From NCBI GenBank assembly GCA_017409875.1, contig JAFQRW010000006.1, forward strand, positions 1-64,000: a stretch of 64,000 bases of DNA, in the 5' to 3' direction. The DNA is from Clostridia bacterium. GTDB lineage: Bacteria; Bacillota; Clostridia; RGIG6154. A model generated the notes under the pieces. That model worked only from the letters and a program-made list of their open reading frames with translations. It was not told where the DNA came from and did no database searches. Of the stretch, positions 10,917-19,887 are shown one piece after another; the stretch's first letter is position 1; every line of letters begins with the position of its first letter. The translations under genes were made by a program, and so were the position numbers.

Positions 10917-11882
10917 ATGGATATTTTAAAGCAAATTTCTAATATCGGTATTGTACCAGTTATTAAAATTAATGACGCTTCAAAAGCAGTTCCGCTTGCA
11001 AAGGCATTGATTGACGGCGGGCTCCCTGTTGCTGAAATCACATTCAGAACTGATGCTGCAGAAGAAGCAATAAAATTGGTTAGTAAGGCTTACCCTGAAA
11101 TGATTGTAGGTGCAGGAACTGTTCTTACAATCGAACAGGCAGAGCGTGCTAAAAAAGCAGGTGCTAAATTTATTGTAAGCCCCGGATTTAACCCAAAAGT
11201 TGTAAAATGGTGTGTTGACAATGATATTTTGGCAACACCCGGATGTACTTCACCGTCTGAAATAGAACAGGCTTTGGAGCTTGGACTTAAAGTAGTTAAA
11301 TTCTTCCCTGCTGAACAAAGCGGAGGGCTTGAAAAAATCAAGGCGCTTTCTGCTCCTTACGGCAATCTTAAATTTATGCCTACAGGCGGAATTAACCTTA
11401 AAAACTTAACAGAGTATATGTCAAACAAAAAAATTGTTGCCTGCGGCGGAAGTTTTATGGTTAAAGAAGACTACATAAATGACGGACAATGGGATAAAAT
11501 TACACAGCTTACAAAAGATGCTGTTGATATTATGCTTGGCCTGGAGGTTGTTCACATTGGCATCAACTCAGCTGACGAAGATGCAGCAAAAGAAACAGGC
11601 TTAAAACTTTCAAATGTTATTGGTAAGCCAATCGAGAGAGATACTGAAAAAGGTATGTTTGTTGGCCCACAGTTTGAAGTTATGAAATCTATGGGCAGAG
11701 GAAAATGCGGTCATATTGCAGTTGGTACAACCAATGTTGAACGTGCAATTTATCACTTGTCACAAAGAGGCATTAAGTTTGACGAAGAAAGTGCAACATT
11801 TAACAGCGACGGCTCAAGAAAGTTTATCTATTTAGCAGAAGAAATCGGTGGATTTGCAATTCACTTGTTAGAAAAGAAATAA
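10917..11882 (+). CDS. eda: KHG/KDPG aldolase with fused VOC-like C-terminal domain
   Basis: 321 residues; plain Eda is about 210. Residues 1-205 are the class I aldolase that cleaves 2-keto-3-deoxy-6-phosphogluconate to pyruvate and glyceraldehyde-3-phosphate: [13 protein letters not shown] with the catalytic Glu, GAGTVL, and the Schiff-base lysine in VVKFFPAE. Residues about 212-321 ([17 protein letters not shown] to [11 protein letters not shown]) look like one glyoxalase/VOC-type beta-alpha-beta-beta-beta module of unknown role. The next gene is the KDG kinase, so the pair phosphorylates KDG and splits KDPG, the lower branch of hexuronate catabolism or the semi-phosphorylative Entner-Doudoroff route. 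AAGGAG precedes the ATG by 10 nt. Confidence 0.88.
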
Positions 11883-13850: not shown

Positions 13851-14588
13851 ATGTCAGGGCACAGTAAGTGGTCTAATATTAAACACAAAAAGGAAAAAAG
13901 TGATAGTCAGAAAGCAAAAATCTTTACCAAAATGGGAAGAGAAATTGCGGTTGCGGTAAAACTCGGCGGTCCTGACCCCGATGCCAATTCAAGACTTAAA
14001 GATATCATTGCAAAGGCAAAGTCAATGAACGTGCCTAACGATAACATTGAAAGAAGCATAAAAAAAGCAGTAGGTGACGGGGACACAAACAACTATGAAG
14101 ACATCACATACGAAGGCTATGGCCCGTCAGGTGTTGCAGTTATTGTTGAAACTTTAACTGATAACCGTAACAGAACAGCATCTGATATGCGTCATTATTT
14201 TGATAAATTCGGCGGCAATTTGGGACAGATGGGCTGCGTTAGCTTTATGTTTGACAAAAAAGGCGTAATTATAATCGAAAATGAAGACGGCGATTTAGAC
14301 GAAGAAGAAGTTATGATGGATGCTTTAGATGCAGGGGCTGCAGATTTTGTGGCAGGCGAAGGCTTTTTTGAAGTTCAGACCGAGCCTAACGATTTTTCGG
14401 CAGTAGTAAGCGCGTTGGAGGAAAAGGGATACAAGTTTGCTTCGGCTCAGGTTGAAAATATTCCCCAAACAACAGTAAAACTTGAAAAAGAAGAAGACAT
14501 TATAAATATGAACAAGCTTATTGACATATTAGAAGACAATGACGACGTTCAAAATATTTATCACAACTGGGAAGAGGACGATGAGTAG
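13851..14588 (+). CDS. yebC: YebC/PmpR family protein
   Basis: 245 residues, family size. It begins with the invariant [17 protein letters not shown] and continues through [10 protein letters not shown] and the acidic [17 protein letters not shown] region. YebC/TACO1 proteins were first described as transcriptional regulators and have since been linked to ribosome function at difficult sequences such as proline runs. AAGGAATGG ribosome site; first gene of a five-gene operon. Its last codons overlap the start of trmL by 8 bp, indicating translational coupling. Confidence 0.95.
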
Positions 14589-15081
14589 TTTAAACATTGT
14601 TTTAATTGAGCCTCAGATTCCGCAAAACACAGGCAATATTGCAAGAACGTGTGCTGCAACAAATACTATTTTGCACCTTGTTGAGCCTATGGGTTTTAAA
14701 ATAGATGATAAAAAGTTAAAACGTGCGGGACTTGATTACTGGCATTTTTTAGACATTCGTTATTATGATTCTATTTGCGACTTTTTTGAAAAAAATATGG
14801 GTGGTGAGTTTTTTTACTTTACCACCAAGGCTCAAAACAGGCATACTGATGTAAATTATCCGGACAACGCTTATCTTGTGTTCGGCAGGGAAGACAAAGG
14901 GCTTGATGAAAAACTGCTTTTTGACAACAAAGACCGTTGTGTAAGATTTCCCATGCAAAACGAGGCAAGAAGTTTAAACCTTTCAAATGCCGTTGCAATC
15001 GGCGTGTATGAGGTTTTAAGGCAGTGGGATTATCCAGAGCTTTTGACAAAGGGAAGCTTAACTAAATTTTCCTGGGATTAA
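14581..15081 (+). CDS. trmL: tRNA (cytidine(34)-2'-O)-methyltransferase
   Basis: 166 residues of the SPOUT methyltransferase superfamily: N-terminal [20 protein letters not shown], then [15 protein letters not shown] and the C-terminal knot [20 protein letters not shown]. It 2'-O-methylates the wobble nucleotide of leucine tRNAs using S-adenosylmethionine. Start ATG 14581 (MSSLNIV) overlaps the yebC stop; the longer in-frame start at 14539 lies inside yebC and is rejected. Confidence 0.9.
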
Positions 15082-15099
15082 TTTGTAGGGAGGGATAAA

Positions 15100-15507
15100 A
15101 TGCAAAGAGAAACAAGCTGTGAGGCGTGTAAAAACACCGTGATAGAGGTTGTATCTTTCGGATTTAAACATGGCATTCCACAAAACGCAGACCTTGTGTT
15201 CGACGTGCGTTTTTTACCAAACCCGTTTTATGTTGACGAGTTAAAACCACTTACAGGCCTTGATGAACGAGTAAGCGAATATGTTAAAAAATTTGATGAA
15301 ACAAAAGAGTTTATACATAAACTTTTTGATATGATTGATTTTTTAGTTCCGCAATATATGAAAGGCTCAAGACTGAGGCTTGTGATAGCAATAGGATGTA
15401 CAGGCGGAAAGCATCGCTCGGTAACAATAGCAGAAGAACTTTATAATCATCTGAAAGAATCAGAATATAAAGTGGTTAAACATCACTCAGATATACAAAA
15501 GCAATAA
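15100..15507 (+). CDS. Stand-alone RapZ C-terminal domain protein
   Basis: 135 residues. The core matches the C-terminal domain of RapZ/Yvc[40 protein letters not shown] and [19 protein letters not shown]. Full RapZ is about 285-295 residues with an N-terminal P-loop ATPase; here no Walker motif precedes and the protein starts cleanly with [10 protein letters not shown] after a GGGAGGG site, so this looks like a genuine one-domain protein, not a fragment. In RapZ this domain binds RNA or amino-sugar metabolites. It sits directly before whiA, where rapZ-yvcK-whiA is the usual order, so the ATPase half and yvcK are missing from the locus. The C-terminus (HHSDIQKQ) is close to the normal family end. 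Confidence 0.82.
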
Positions 15508-15520
15508 TAGGAGGCAAATA

Positions 15521-16450
15521 ATGTCTTTTACGCTTAAAATCAAAAGAGAAATTTGCAAAAAATCCCCTAAAGACAGGCAAGCGGCGGTTGCCGAACTTTT
15601 GGGGATTATTTGTTTTGGAGCATATATTAAAAACAATTCACTTAATGTTAAAACTGAAAATGCATTTGTTGCAAAACGCATTTTTTCGCTTGTAAAAGAG
15701 TGCTTTGCGTTGTCGCCTGTTATTATAGCAAGCGAAAACCAAAAGAAAAACATTTATTTTGTAGAAATTGCAAAAGGATTTGAGGCACTTGATATTTTAG
15801 CTGAACTTGGTTTGGTAAAAAATTCTCACGAGATGAAAAATTTTGTGTCATTTGGCATTTCGGAAAATTTTGTGCCTGATGAAGAAACAAAGCTTGCGCT
15901 TTTAAAGGGTGCATTTTTAATGGCAGGCTCATGCGGACTTCCTGAAAGAGGATATCATTTGGAGATTGATACAAATAAACTAAAACTGTGTCGTGAGCTT
16001 ATCCGCATTTTAGAGGGCTTTGAAATTTATGCAAAGCAAATTTCACGCGGATCGAATTATGTTGTGTATGTCAAAGACTCTCAGCAGATTTCAGACTTTT
16101 TAGGCGGAATAGGCGCAACTTCTGCCATGGTTGAAATGCAGGATACCATGATTGTTAAACAAATTAAAAACAACATTAACAGAATTGCAAATTGTGAGTC
16201 AGCAAACTTAGAAAAAACAATGAATGTAGGCTTTAAACAGGCAGCTCAAATAGAAAAAATAAGAGATAATTTAGGACTTGATTCTTTGGAAAGCTCATTA
16301 AAAGAAATTGCAATTTTAAGGCTTGAAAACAAATATGCGTCATTAAAAGAGCTTGGCGAGATGCTTTCAAAGCCGCTTTCAAAATCGGGAGTAAACCACA
16401 AGTTTAAAAAATTAGAAGAAATCGCAGATAGTATCAAGGAGGTAAAATAA
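15521..16450 (+). CDS. whiA: DNA-binding protein WhiA
   Basis: 309 residues. N-terminal degenerate LAGLIDADG homing-endonuclease-like halves (ELLGIICFGAYIKN; AFLMAGSCGLPERGYHLEI) and a C-terminal helix-turn-helix (SLKELGEMLSKPLSKSGVNHKFKKL). WhiA is the sporulation and cell-division regulator of Gram-positive bacteria; in Bacillus it affects division and chromosome segregation. GGAGG site; its TAA overlaps the dnaE ATG by one base. Confidence 0.93.
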   Translation: MSFTLKIKREICKKSPKDRQAAVAELLGIICFGAYIKNNSLNVKTENAFVAKRIFSLVKECFALSPVIIASENQKKNIYFVEIAKGFEALDILAELGLVKNSHEMKNFVSFGISENFVPDEETKLALLKGAFLMAGSCGLPERGYHLEIDTNKLKLCRELIRILEGFEIYAKQISRGSNYVVYVKDSQQISDFLGGIGATSAMVEMQDTMIVKQIKNNINRIANCESANLEKTMNVGFKQAAQIEKIRDNLGLDSLESSLKEIAILRLENKYASLKELGEMLSKPLSKSGVNHKFKKLEEIADSIKEVK

Positions 16451-19400
16451 TGGCGTTTGTTCATTTGCATGTTCATAGTCAGTACAGCCTTTTAGACGGC
16501 GCATGCCGCATTGAAGCGCTTGTTGACACAGCAAAAGCACTCGGGCAGACTGCTATTGCAATTACTGACCATGGTGCGATGTATGGAGCGGTTGATTTTT
16601 ATAAATATGCAAAAAAGCAAGGAATAAAGCCAATTATCGGATGCGAGGTTTATACTGCTCAAAGAAATCTTGAAGATAAAACAGCAGAGCTTGACGCAGA
16701 TTACGGGCATTTAGTGCTGCTTGCTAAAAATGAGACGGGATATAAAAATCTTATAAAGCTTGTATCAATCGGCTTTACCGATGGTTTTTACTACAAGCCA
16801 AGAATAGATTTGAATGTGCTGAAAAAATATTCTGACGGCCTGATTGCACTTTCTGCGTGTTTGGCAGGCGACGTGCCAAAAAGACTGGTAAGAGACGATT
16901 ATGAGGGCGCTAAGAAGAAAGCAAAAGAGTATCTTAACATTTTCGGAAAAGAAAACTATTTTATTGAGCTTCAAAATCACGGGATTGAAGAACAGCTTAA
17001 ACTCAATCCGCTTTTGCTTAAAATAGCAGACGAACTTGATATAGAAACGGTTGTAACAAATGACGTTCACTACATAGAGAAAAAAGATGCGTTTGCACAA
17101 GATGTTTTAATGTGCATTCAAATGAACAAGCTTGTGACCGATGAAACAAGATTAAAGCATGAAACGCAGGAATTTTATCTAAAATCGGAAGAGGAAATGA
17201 GACAGGTGTTTCCAAAGCTTACAAAAAGCTTTGATAACACCGAAAAAATTGCTCAAAGGTGCAATGTTGAATTTGACTTTTCTAAAAGATTTTTGCCTGA
17301 ATTTCCTGTGCCAAAAGGCTACACCCCCGAAGAATATTTGAGAGAAAAGTGCAGCGAGGGGTTAAATGAGAGGTACGGCGAAAATAAAGAGGCAAAGGCA
17401 CGCCTTGATTACGAGCTTGAAGTTATAAGCTCAATGGGATTTGTGGACTATTTTCTGATAGTGTGGGATGTTATAAAATATGCAAAAGACAACGGCATTC
17501 CTGTAGGCCCCGGAAGGGGATCGGCAGCAGGAAGCATTGTTTCATACTGCCTTAAAATTACAGATATCGACCCTATCAAATACAGCCTGTTCTTTGAAAG
17601 ATTTTTAAACTCTGAGCGTGTAAGTATGCCTGATATTGACATGGACTTTTGCTACGAGCGCCGTCAGGAGGTTTTAGACTACGTTACTTCAAAATATGGC
17701 GCAGACCGTGTGGCTCAGATTATAACTTTCGGAACTATGAAGGCAAGAAATGCCGTGCGTGATGTGGGCAGAGCTTTAGGATACCCGTATGCCATGTGCG
17801 ATGAAATCGCAAAAATGATACCACGTGAGCTTAATATTACAATACAAAGCTCGCTTGAGAAAAATAAAGAGCTTAAAATGCGTTATGATGCAGACCAAGA
17901 TGTTAAAAAACTGATTGACACGGCAATGGCATTAGAGGGGATGCCGCGTCATGCGTCAACACACGCTGCAGGTGTTGTTATTACAAAAGACCCTGTATCA
18001 ACTTATGTTCCGCTTTATCGTAACGGCGACCTTATTTCAACTCAGTATACTATGGTGACACTAGAAGAATTAGGGCTTCTTAAAATGGACTTTTTGGGCC
18101 TAAGGACGCTTACTGTTATCAAACAGGCGGCAGACCTTGCAGATAAAAATTTTAAAATAGATAATATCGACTATAACGACCCTAAAGTATACGAAATGAT
18201 AGGAAATGGCGACACAGAGGGCGTTTTCCAGCTTGAAAGTGCCGGCATGAAGCGGTTTATGAGAGAGCTTAAACCCAAAAGCTTAGAAGATGTTATTGCG
18301 GGAATTTCTCTTTACCGTCCGGGACCTATGGATTCTATTCCTACTTATGTTGCAAATAAAAACAATCCCCAAAAGGTAACATATCTTCACCCGTCTTTAA
18401 AACCTATTTTAGATGTAACTTACGGCTGTATTGTGTATCAGGAACAGGTTATGGAGATAGTAAAACAGCTTGCAGGCTTTTCGATGGGCGGAGCCGATAT
18501 GGTGCGCCGTGCAATGAGCAAGAAAAAGGCGGCTGAAATGGAACGCGCCAGAAATGAATTTTTATATGGAAAAAAAGACGAAAATGGCAAGTATGTTGTT
18601 GACGGTGCGGTAAAACGCGGAATTGATGAAAAGGTAGCAAGCGAGATAATTGACCATATTATGGACTTTGCAAAATATGCGTTTAACAAGTCGCATGCGG
18701 CAGCTTATGCTGTTGTTGCCTATCAGACTGCATATTTAAAATGCCATTATCCCGTTGCATTTATGGCGGCGTTAATGTCCAGCTTTTTGGAAGATACCGA
18801 TAAAATTACAGAGTATATCGAGCTTTGCAAAAAGATGGGTATGGAGGTTAAAAAACCTGACGTAAACAAAAGCTTTTTGCAATTTTCAGTAGAAGACGGC
18901 AACATAAGATTTGGGCTTGCTGCCGTTAAAAATGTTGGCAGAAACTTTGTAAGATCGCTTATAGATGAACGCTTATCAGGCGGAGAGTTTAAAACATTCA
19001 ATCAATTTACAGAGCGAATGATTAAATACGAAAGCTTTAACAAGCGTGCAGTTGAAAGCCTTATTTTGAGCGGGTCTATGGATTGCTTTGGACTAAATCG
19101 TTCCCAGCTTATGTTTATATATGAAAGACTGATTGATGCAAAAACAGATGATTTAAAAAGAGTGTCGGAAAATCAGATGTCGTTTTTTGCTGAGGACAAG
19201 CCACAAGAAGTTGAAATCCCCAAGCTTGACGAAATGGATTTGATGCTCAGACTTTCTTATGAAAAGCAAACACTTGGAATTTACATTTCAGGCCACCCTG
19301 TAGAGCGTTTTAAAACACAGTACACACCTTTGGTAAACTGCAATACTTTAGATATAAAAAGAACCGCCTTTGAAGAAGACACAGACCTTAAAGACGGTGA

Positions 19401-19887
19401 TGTTATTGCGGTTGCAGGTATTGTTCAGTCGAGAAAAATCAAGTACACCAAGAAAAATGAAGAAATGGCATTTATCACTTTAGAGGATAAGTTAGGCTCG
19501 GTGGAACTTGTTGCCTTTCCAAAAGTGTTTGCAGAGTTTAAGAAAAACCTCGAGGAAGGCACTGTTATTGTTGCAAAAGGCAGACTTCAGGTTCGTGATG
19601 AGCAAGAAAGCACAGTGATTTTAAATCATGTTACAGAGCTTAATTCTGCCGTAAAACCCCGAAAGCTTTATATAAGATTTGAAAAGGGTATGGAGCGCTC
19701 AGAAGACGAGATTTTAGCAGTTTTAGATGAGTTTAAGGGAGAAGTTCCCGTATTGCTTTATTACGAGGAAACCAAAGTTACCAAAATGGCAAGAAGGGAC
19801 CATTTTGTAAATATTTGCGACCCGCTTATCAATAAACTATCTGATATAGTTGGCGGAAGAAATGTAAAAATAACGGGAAATTCGTGA
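16450..19887 (+). CDS. dnaE: DNA polymerase III alpha subunit (DnaE type)
   Basis: 1145 residues, normal for DnaE. The N-terminal PHP domain (HLHVHSQYSLLDGACR; ITDHGAMYGAVDF) retains its histidines. The C-family polymerase core follows with PGRGSAAGSIVSYC and catalytic aspartates in MPDIDMDFCYERR, then the helix-hairpin-helix fingers (NKSHAAAYAVVAYQTAYLK) and an OB fold near residues 985-1060 (IAVAGIVQSRKIKYTKKNEE). Bacillota usually also encode PolC; DnaE then extends primers before hand-off. It is last in the yebC operon; ftsZ follows with its own promoter. Confidence 0.96.
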   Translation: MAFVHLHVHSQYSLLDGACRIEALVDTAKALGQTAIAITDHGAMYGAVDFYKYAKKQGIKPIIGCEVYTAQRNLEDKTAELDADYGHLVLLAKNETGYKNLIKLVSIGFTDGFYYKPRIDLNVLKKYSDGLIALSACLAGDVPKRLVRDDYEGAKKKAKEYLNIFGKENYFIELQNHGIEEQLKLNPLLLKIADELDIETVVTNDVHYIEKKDAFAQDVLMCIQMNKLVTDETRLKHETQEFYLKSEEEMRQVFPKLTKSFDNTEKIAQRCNVEFDFSKRFLPEFPVPKGYTPEEYLREKCSEGLNERYGENKEAKARLDYELEVISSMGFVDYFLIVWDVIKYAKDNGIPVGPGRGSAAGSIVSYCLKITDIDPIKYSLFFERFLNSERVSMPDIDMDFCYERRQEVLDYVTSKYGADRVAQIITFGTMKARNAVRDVGRALGYPYAMCDEIAKMIPRELNITIQSSLEKNKELKMRYDADQDVKKLIDTAMALEGMPRHASTHAAGVVITKDPVSTYVPLYRNGDLISTQYTMVTLEELGLLKMDFLGLRTLTVIKQAADLADKNFKIDNIDYNDPKVYEMIGNGDTEGVFQLESAGMKRFMRELKPKSLEDVIAGISLYRPGPMDSIPTYVANKNNPQKVTYLHPSLKPILDVTYGCIVYQEQVMEIVKQLAGFSMGGADMVRRAMSKKKAAEMERARNEFLYGKKDENGKYVVDGAVKRGIDEKVASEIIDHIMDFAKYAFNKSHAAAYAVVAYQTAYLKCHYPVAFMAALMSSFLEDTDKITEYIELCKKMGMEVKKPDVNKSFLQFSVEDGNIRFGLAAVKNVGRNFVRSLIDERLSGGEFKTFNQFTERMIKYESFNKRAVESLILSGSMDCFGLNRSQLMFIYERLIDAKTDDLKRVSENQMSFFAEDKPQEVEIPKLDEMDLMLRLSYEKQTLGIYISGHPVERFKTQYTPLVNCNTLDIKRTAFEEDTDLKDGDVIAVAGIVQSRKIKYTKKNEEMAFITLEDKLGSVELVAFPKVFAEFKKNLEEGTVIVAKGRLQVRDEQESTVILNHVTELNSAVKPRKLYIRFEKGMERSEDEILAVLDEFKGEVPVLLYYEETKVTKMARRDHFVNICDPLINKLSDIVGGRNVKITGNS

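Follow-up and report, generated by a model that had tools for sequence, protein, structure and literature searches.

A stand-alone RapZ carboxyl-terminal domain at the rapZ locus of a clostridial genome: a candidate ligand sensor lacking the P-loop ATPase half

What can the carboxyl-terminal domain (CTD) of RapZ do when it is encoded alone? The question is raised by a short gene beside whiA in a window of 64,000 nucleotides (positions 1 to 64,000 of contig JAFQRW010000006.1, Clostridia bacterium assembly GCA_017409875.1). The CTD is the GlcN6P sensor of Escherichia coli RapZ; Bacillus subtilis YvcJ binds UDP-GlcNAc through its amino-terminal domain (NTD) and partners GlmR (YvcK). The gene bears on what RapZ/YvcJ does in Gram-positive bacteria. 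A preliminary description read the short gene as an isolated RapZ CTD that could reveal the minimal function of this domain; the capacities and limits of the isolated CTD were already demonstrated in E. coli (PMC5737377, PMC7073468).

The gene (15100–15507, forward strand; ATG start, 135 codons) encodes a genuine stand-alone RapZ CTD. PF22740 (RapZ C-terminal domain) is the sole Pfam family above cut-off in the 135-residue protein (residues 14–132; E 1.6e-48; 164.3 bits versus a cut-off of 27), and the search gave no RapZ-N match. A phmmer comparison with the E. coli RapZ-CTD (5o5s) gives E 1.5e-30; alignment with residues 164–281 of E. coli RapZ (YhbJ) is gapless, with 43% identity. The AlphaFold (AF2) model has low confidence in the first ten residues only (pLDDT 91.9, pTM 0.86), and Foldseek superimposes it on the 5o5s crystal structure with E 1.8e-13, a target-normalised TM-score (TMt) of 0.95, and an rmsd of 1.1 Å. 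The NCBIfam RapZ equivalog NF003828 scores 170 bits, below its cut-off of 244, and matches over profile positions 155–277 of 278 only. The protein thus belongs to the RapZ-C domain family and not to the RapZ RNase-adapter equivalog, because it lacks two defining features: a P-loop NTD joined to the CTD, and a basic tail.

The gene lies in a tightly packed, codirectional order: yebC–trmL–rapZ-C–whiA–dnaE. The first of these (13851–14588, forward strand), which we take to be yebC-type from its recognizable sequence, is 74–82% identical to the gene at the same position in relatives. The trmL gene follows (14582–15081, forward strand; TIGR00185, E 1.9e-57, and synteny), and its stop codon precedes the rapZ-C start by 18 nt. 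The start itself is clean, and the gene has its own ribosome site, as first described: the Shine-Dalgarno-like AGGGAGGG (15087–15094, forward strand), read from the sequence, stands 5 nt upstream of the ATG. Downstream, whiA keeps its expected place (15521–16450, forward strand; TIGR00647, E 2.7e-68), followed by dnaE (16450–19887, forward strand; DNA polymerase III alpha Pfam domains and synteny). The codon score (0.133) and GC3 (0.28) of rapZ-C are comparable to those of other genes in the window.

The preliminary description also noted that both the P-loop ATPase half and the usually adjacent yvcK were missing. Six-frame HMM searches of the whole genome (1,461,971 bases, 1.46 Mb; 23 contigs; 98.15% complete) found neither the RapZ NTD (PF03668) nor CofD/YvcK (PF01933); positive controls were detected in both searches. 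With no PF03668 match, a second rapZ at another place in the assembly, whether whole or split, was rejected, and a full-length copy within the missing 2% is unlikely because the short gene fills the normal rapZ locus. The absence of yvcK stands as well, but it does not belong to the same event. PF01933 was found in none of five family relatives (G001–G005), and rapZ adjoins whiA in all four that have rapZ (G001–G004). Loss of yvcK together with the NTD is therefore rejected; since all five relatives searched lack yvcK, its absence came before the later loss of the NTD.

The locus comparison drew on six genomes of the taxonomic order, all in one family (f1), with the genus represented by one assembly. 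The four rapZ-bearing relatives encode full-length, two-domain proteins of 286–300 residues; neither RapZ domain was found in the fifth (G005, 65% complete). The order is exactly yebC–trmL–rapZ–whiA–dnaE in G004 and G002, and 19 nt separate the trmL stop from the rapZ start in G004. One open reading frame separates trmL from rapZ in G001; G003 carries an open reading frame of the same kind upstream of rapZ, and the script did not pick out its trmL. Among 80 related loci from public genomes, whiA directly follows rapZ in most, and yvcK lies between them in a minority. By synteny, then, the window gene is truncated in place. The simplest history would be loss of the NTD (about 150 codons) in this lineage, the full-length genes of G001–G004 occupying the same locus. 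The deletion would have kept or re-made the start region and fused it with the linker between the domains. For about twelve residues at its amino terminus, the short protein has no convincing counterpart in the full-length relatives.

The domain that remains shows no sign of decay, to judge from its sequence. In a CTD tree its branch (0.527) is on a par with those of its full-length relatives (0.510 for G004 and about 0.62 for G001), all measured from their shared node. Among 89 CTDs from full-length proteins of relatives, 27 columns never vary, and it keeps 24 of them; the three lost positions are contiguous. A pseudogene reading was rejected, since the gene is intact and neither its codon usage, its conservation, nor its branch length points to decay. 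The genome thus does not pair a degenerating short copy with a full-length rapZ elsewhere, the alternative raised in the preliminary description.

Functional residues can be placed by comparison with E. coli. The motif SFGFKHG (residues 19–25; 15154–15174, forward strand), placed by column mapping, includes K23, equivalent to K170. The dimerization strand LVFD (residues 32–35; 15193–15204, forward strand) aligns with YVFD at E. coli 179–182, D35 matching D182 (PMC5737377). The pocket motif GCTGGKHR (residues 99–106; 15394–15417, forward strand) aligns with C247, T248, G249, K251, H252, and R253 (PMC9841335). Kept residues are K23, D35, R37, C100, T101, G102, K104, H105, and R106; K170, C247, and the tested pocket residues are required for E. 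coli RapZ function (PMC9841335). Within the pocket set (H190, T248, G249, H252, R253, C247, and K170) only H190 differs, being F43 here, so ligand specificity may differ; Phe or Tyr is usual at this position in most full-length relatives. Two other regions are changed. GSR (residues 89–91; 15364–15372, forward strand) replaces the EGK loop, which is invariant in the 89 full-length CTDs and corresponds to E. coli 236–238, near the pocket. The E. coli protein's basic C-terminal tail is missing: K270 is Y123, R277 (the Arg of an HRD that is otherwise conserved) is S130, K281 is K134, and R282 is Q135, after which the chain ends with no K283.

Such reduction is rare. One set of 391 class genomes was searched for both RapZ domains; the CTD was found in 321 and the NTD in 320, and 70 had no RapZ-C at all. 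Compared by listed genome, the CTD occurs without the NTD in three: the window genome, G357, and G290. The G357 case was rejected as a contig-edge fragment, which leaves CTD-only rapZ in 2 of about 320 rapZ-bearing genomes. (Two further genomes, G191 and G287, match RapZ-N weakly, at E 7.5e-8 and 2.4e-4, and show no RapZ-C; these may be different P-loop proteins or forms with the NTD alone.) A pattern search of 398 genomes of the phylum, for a ribosome site and ATG just upstream of an SFG(F/Y)K motif, returned 16 matches. Of these, 13 proved to be full-length rapZ, one of them truncated at the end of its contig, and L113 and L117 were not rapZ, which left the window gene as the single genuine solo form. 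Scans of viral contigs yielded one distant relative, and the trmL–rapZ-C junction was absent from them.

The second solo gene, in a different family of the same class, encodes 129 residues and lies between murB and whiA (L090/L097, G290:C104, 1003–1392, reverse strand). Like the window gene it is truncated at its native locus. Its congeners (G218, G275, G344, and G362) have full-length rapZ, so the NTD loss in G290 was independent; other genera of its family have the order rapZ–yvcK–whiA. The two solo proteins are 45% identical, and that of G290 evolves faster, with a long branch (1.22) in the CTD tree. CofD was not found in G290 or in the two congeners searched, so both NTD losses fell in lineages without YvcK. 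A tie between the two absences is plausible, because B. subtilis YvcJ depends on a Walker-A motif to bind UDP-GlcNAc and has UDP-GlcNAc-loaded GlmR as an interaction partner (PMC7525490). However, absence of yvcK is common, so two YvcK-less cases prove nothing.

Both solo proteins have also lost the EG of the EGK loop, G290 having AQK at this position. This overlap has a nominal P of about 0.05, assuming random choice among invariant columns. E. coli RapZ, with its NTD present, has NNR there, and its N236A substitution is without effect (PMC9841335); EGK and the NTD therefore do not always go together. The shared loss is only a lead, seen in two sequences.

E. coli provides the precedent for what such a protein might do. 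The isolated CTD dimerizes, binds GlmY and GlmZ, and binds and responds to GlcN6P, with a KD of 10 nM, about ten times tighter than that of full-length RapZ; lacking the NTD, it fails to direct cleavage by RNase E, to activate glmY expression, or to form tetramers (PMC5737377, PMC7073468, PMC9841335). The clostridial protein shares the dimerization strand and most pocket residues with E. coli RapZ. In contrast, it has Phe for H190, and it lacks both the basic tail and the kinase-like NTD; by precedent it would form no tetramer, present no RNA to RNase E, and not activate QseE/QseF. In the literature examined, no report was found of GlcN6P binding by a clostridial RapZ.

With moderate confidence, we favor the view that rapZ lost its NTD in place and that the CTD was retained by selection as an independent protein: a dimeric ligand sensor stripped of NTD-dependent outputs. 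The protein would fold and dimerize like its E. coli counterpart, and the conserved CTGGxHR pocket would sense a cell-wall precursor, be it a phosphorylated amino sugar (GlcN6P, for example) or another. Output would be by occupancy, with a partner bound, sequestered, or released; there would be no presentation of RNA to an RNase, and no signaling of nucleotide or UDP-GlcNAc through an NTD. More tentatively, the two lineages that already lacked GlmR/YvcK may each have shed the NTD in place and remodeled the same pocket-side EGK loop, arriving at a minimal sensor of the GlcN6P type whose output differs.

The identity of the partner brings in the chief alternative, that the CTD sequesters a regulatory RNA and frees it as GlcN6P rises, so controlling glmS or cell-wall genes without an RNase step. 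GlmS is present in the window genome; an HPr gene follows glmS, and the two genes before it we take by eye to be cdaA and cdaR. No glmS ribozyme was detected in six genomes, the window genome included, so a ribozyme was rejected as the alternative regulator, which leaves room for the ligand sensor and for such a role alike. Moreover, the E. coli CTD alone binds GlmY and GlmZ and releases GlmY with GlcN6P (PMC7073468), equivalents of K170, R184, K251, and R253 are kept in the solo protein, and B. subtilis YvcJ was recovered in a survey of the RNA-binding proteome (PMC12456014). The changed tail (Y123, S130, and Q135 for K270, R277, and R282) points the other way: RNA binding, which the preliminary description attributed to this domain, is doubtful in this protein given the loss of that basic stretch, and the E. 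coli tail consensus is not conserved among YvcJ homologues (PMC7525490). RNA is a possible partner but not a favored one, and we regard sequestration of RNA as unlikely.

The CTD might instead be a transitional remnant of little function, its NTD lost in genome reduction and the rest on its way out, as in class members without rapZ. The genome is small (1.46 Mb), the 70 of 391 class genomes without any RapZ-C would represent the end point, and the fast-evolving copy of G290 also resides in a small genome (1.4 Mb). The window copy, however, is intact. It retains its Shine-Dalgarno sequence, its codon usage, and almost every invariant column, and its evolutionary rate is that of full-length CTDs; such a remnant is improbable. 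It is very improbable indeed that the gene reflects an assembly or strain artefact, a deletion within the rapZ of one assembled genome. One assembly does represent the genus, and the junction is absent from the viral contigs scanned, but assembly error would not be expected to yield a cleanly opening frame with its own Shine-Dalgarno sequence and an amino terminus without counterpart in relatives, nor the EGK-loop change that G290 shows too.

How does this protein compare with known systems? B. subtilis YvcJ is likewise a Bacillota RapZ homologue encoded beside whiA, in a yvcJ–glmR(yvcK)–whiA locus. Here no yvcK/glmR lies between rapZ and whiA, and both GlmR and the Walker-A NTD, needed in YvcJ for UDP-GlcNAc binding, are absent (PMC7525490). 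A lineage without NTD or GlmR, in which the CTD is normally constrained, thus offers natural evidence for a useful job of the lone CTD in Bacillota, and the solo CTD is a small, tractable protein for testing that role. The open-access literature searched yielded no account of a chromosomal rapZ that has been cut down to the CTD while staying at its native locus.

A CTD-only protein is not new as such, because solo and re-fused RapZ-C are known from phages and plasmids. RapZ-C is a mobile module: alone in phages, and fused elsewhere to NUDIX or to an APH-type kinase. Gordonia phage Tarzan gp64 and Streptomyces phage Asis gp55 are, like the window protein, single PF22740 domains (128–131 residues); these phage genes lie away from any rapZ locus, and identity is about 33–35%. 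The actinophage genes at L128:2492–2887 and L129:2495–2881 are annotated "RNA binding protein", and related phages also use "ATPase" or "HNH endonuclease". The fusion proteins similarly lack the RapZ P-loop NTD, but there another partner domain takes its place. In a Streptomyces plasmid, the protein annotated "RNase adapter RapZ" (L092:3995–4876) is RapZ-C plus NUDIX, and a Phocaeicola plasmid protein (L093:2957–4417) joins an APH-type phosphotransferase to RapZ-C, a kinase-like partner replacing the P-loop NTD. Within the window itself, 10917–11882 encodes a KDPG-aldolase-like protein whose C-terminal extension, by eye, resembles a glyoxalase/VOC domain.
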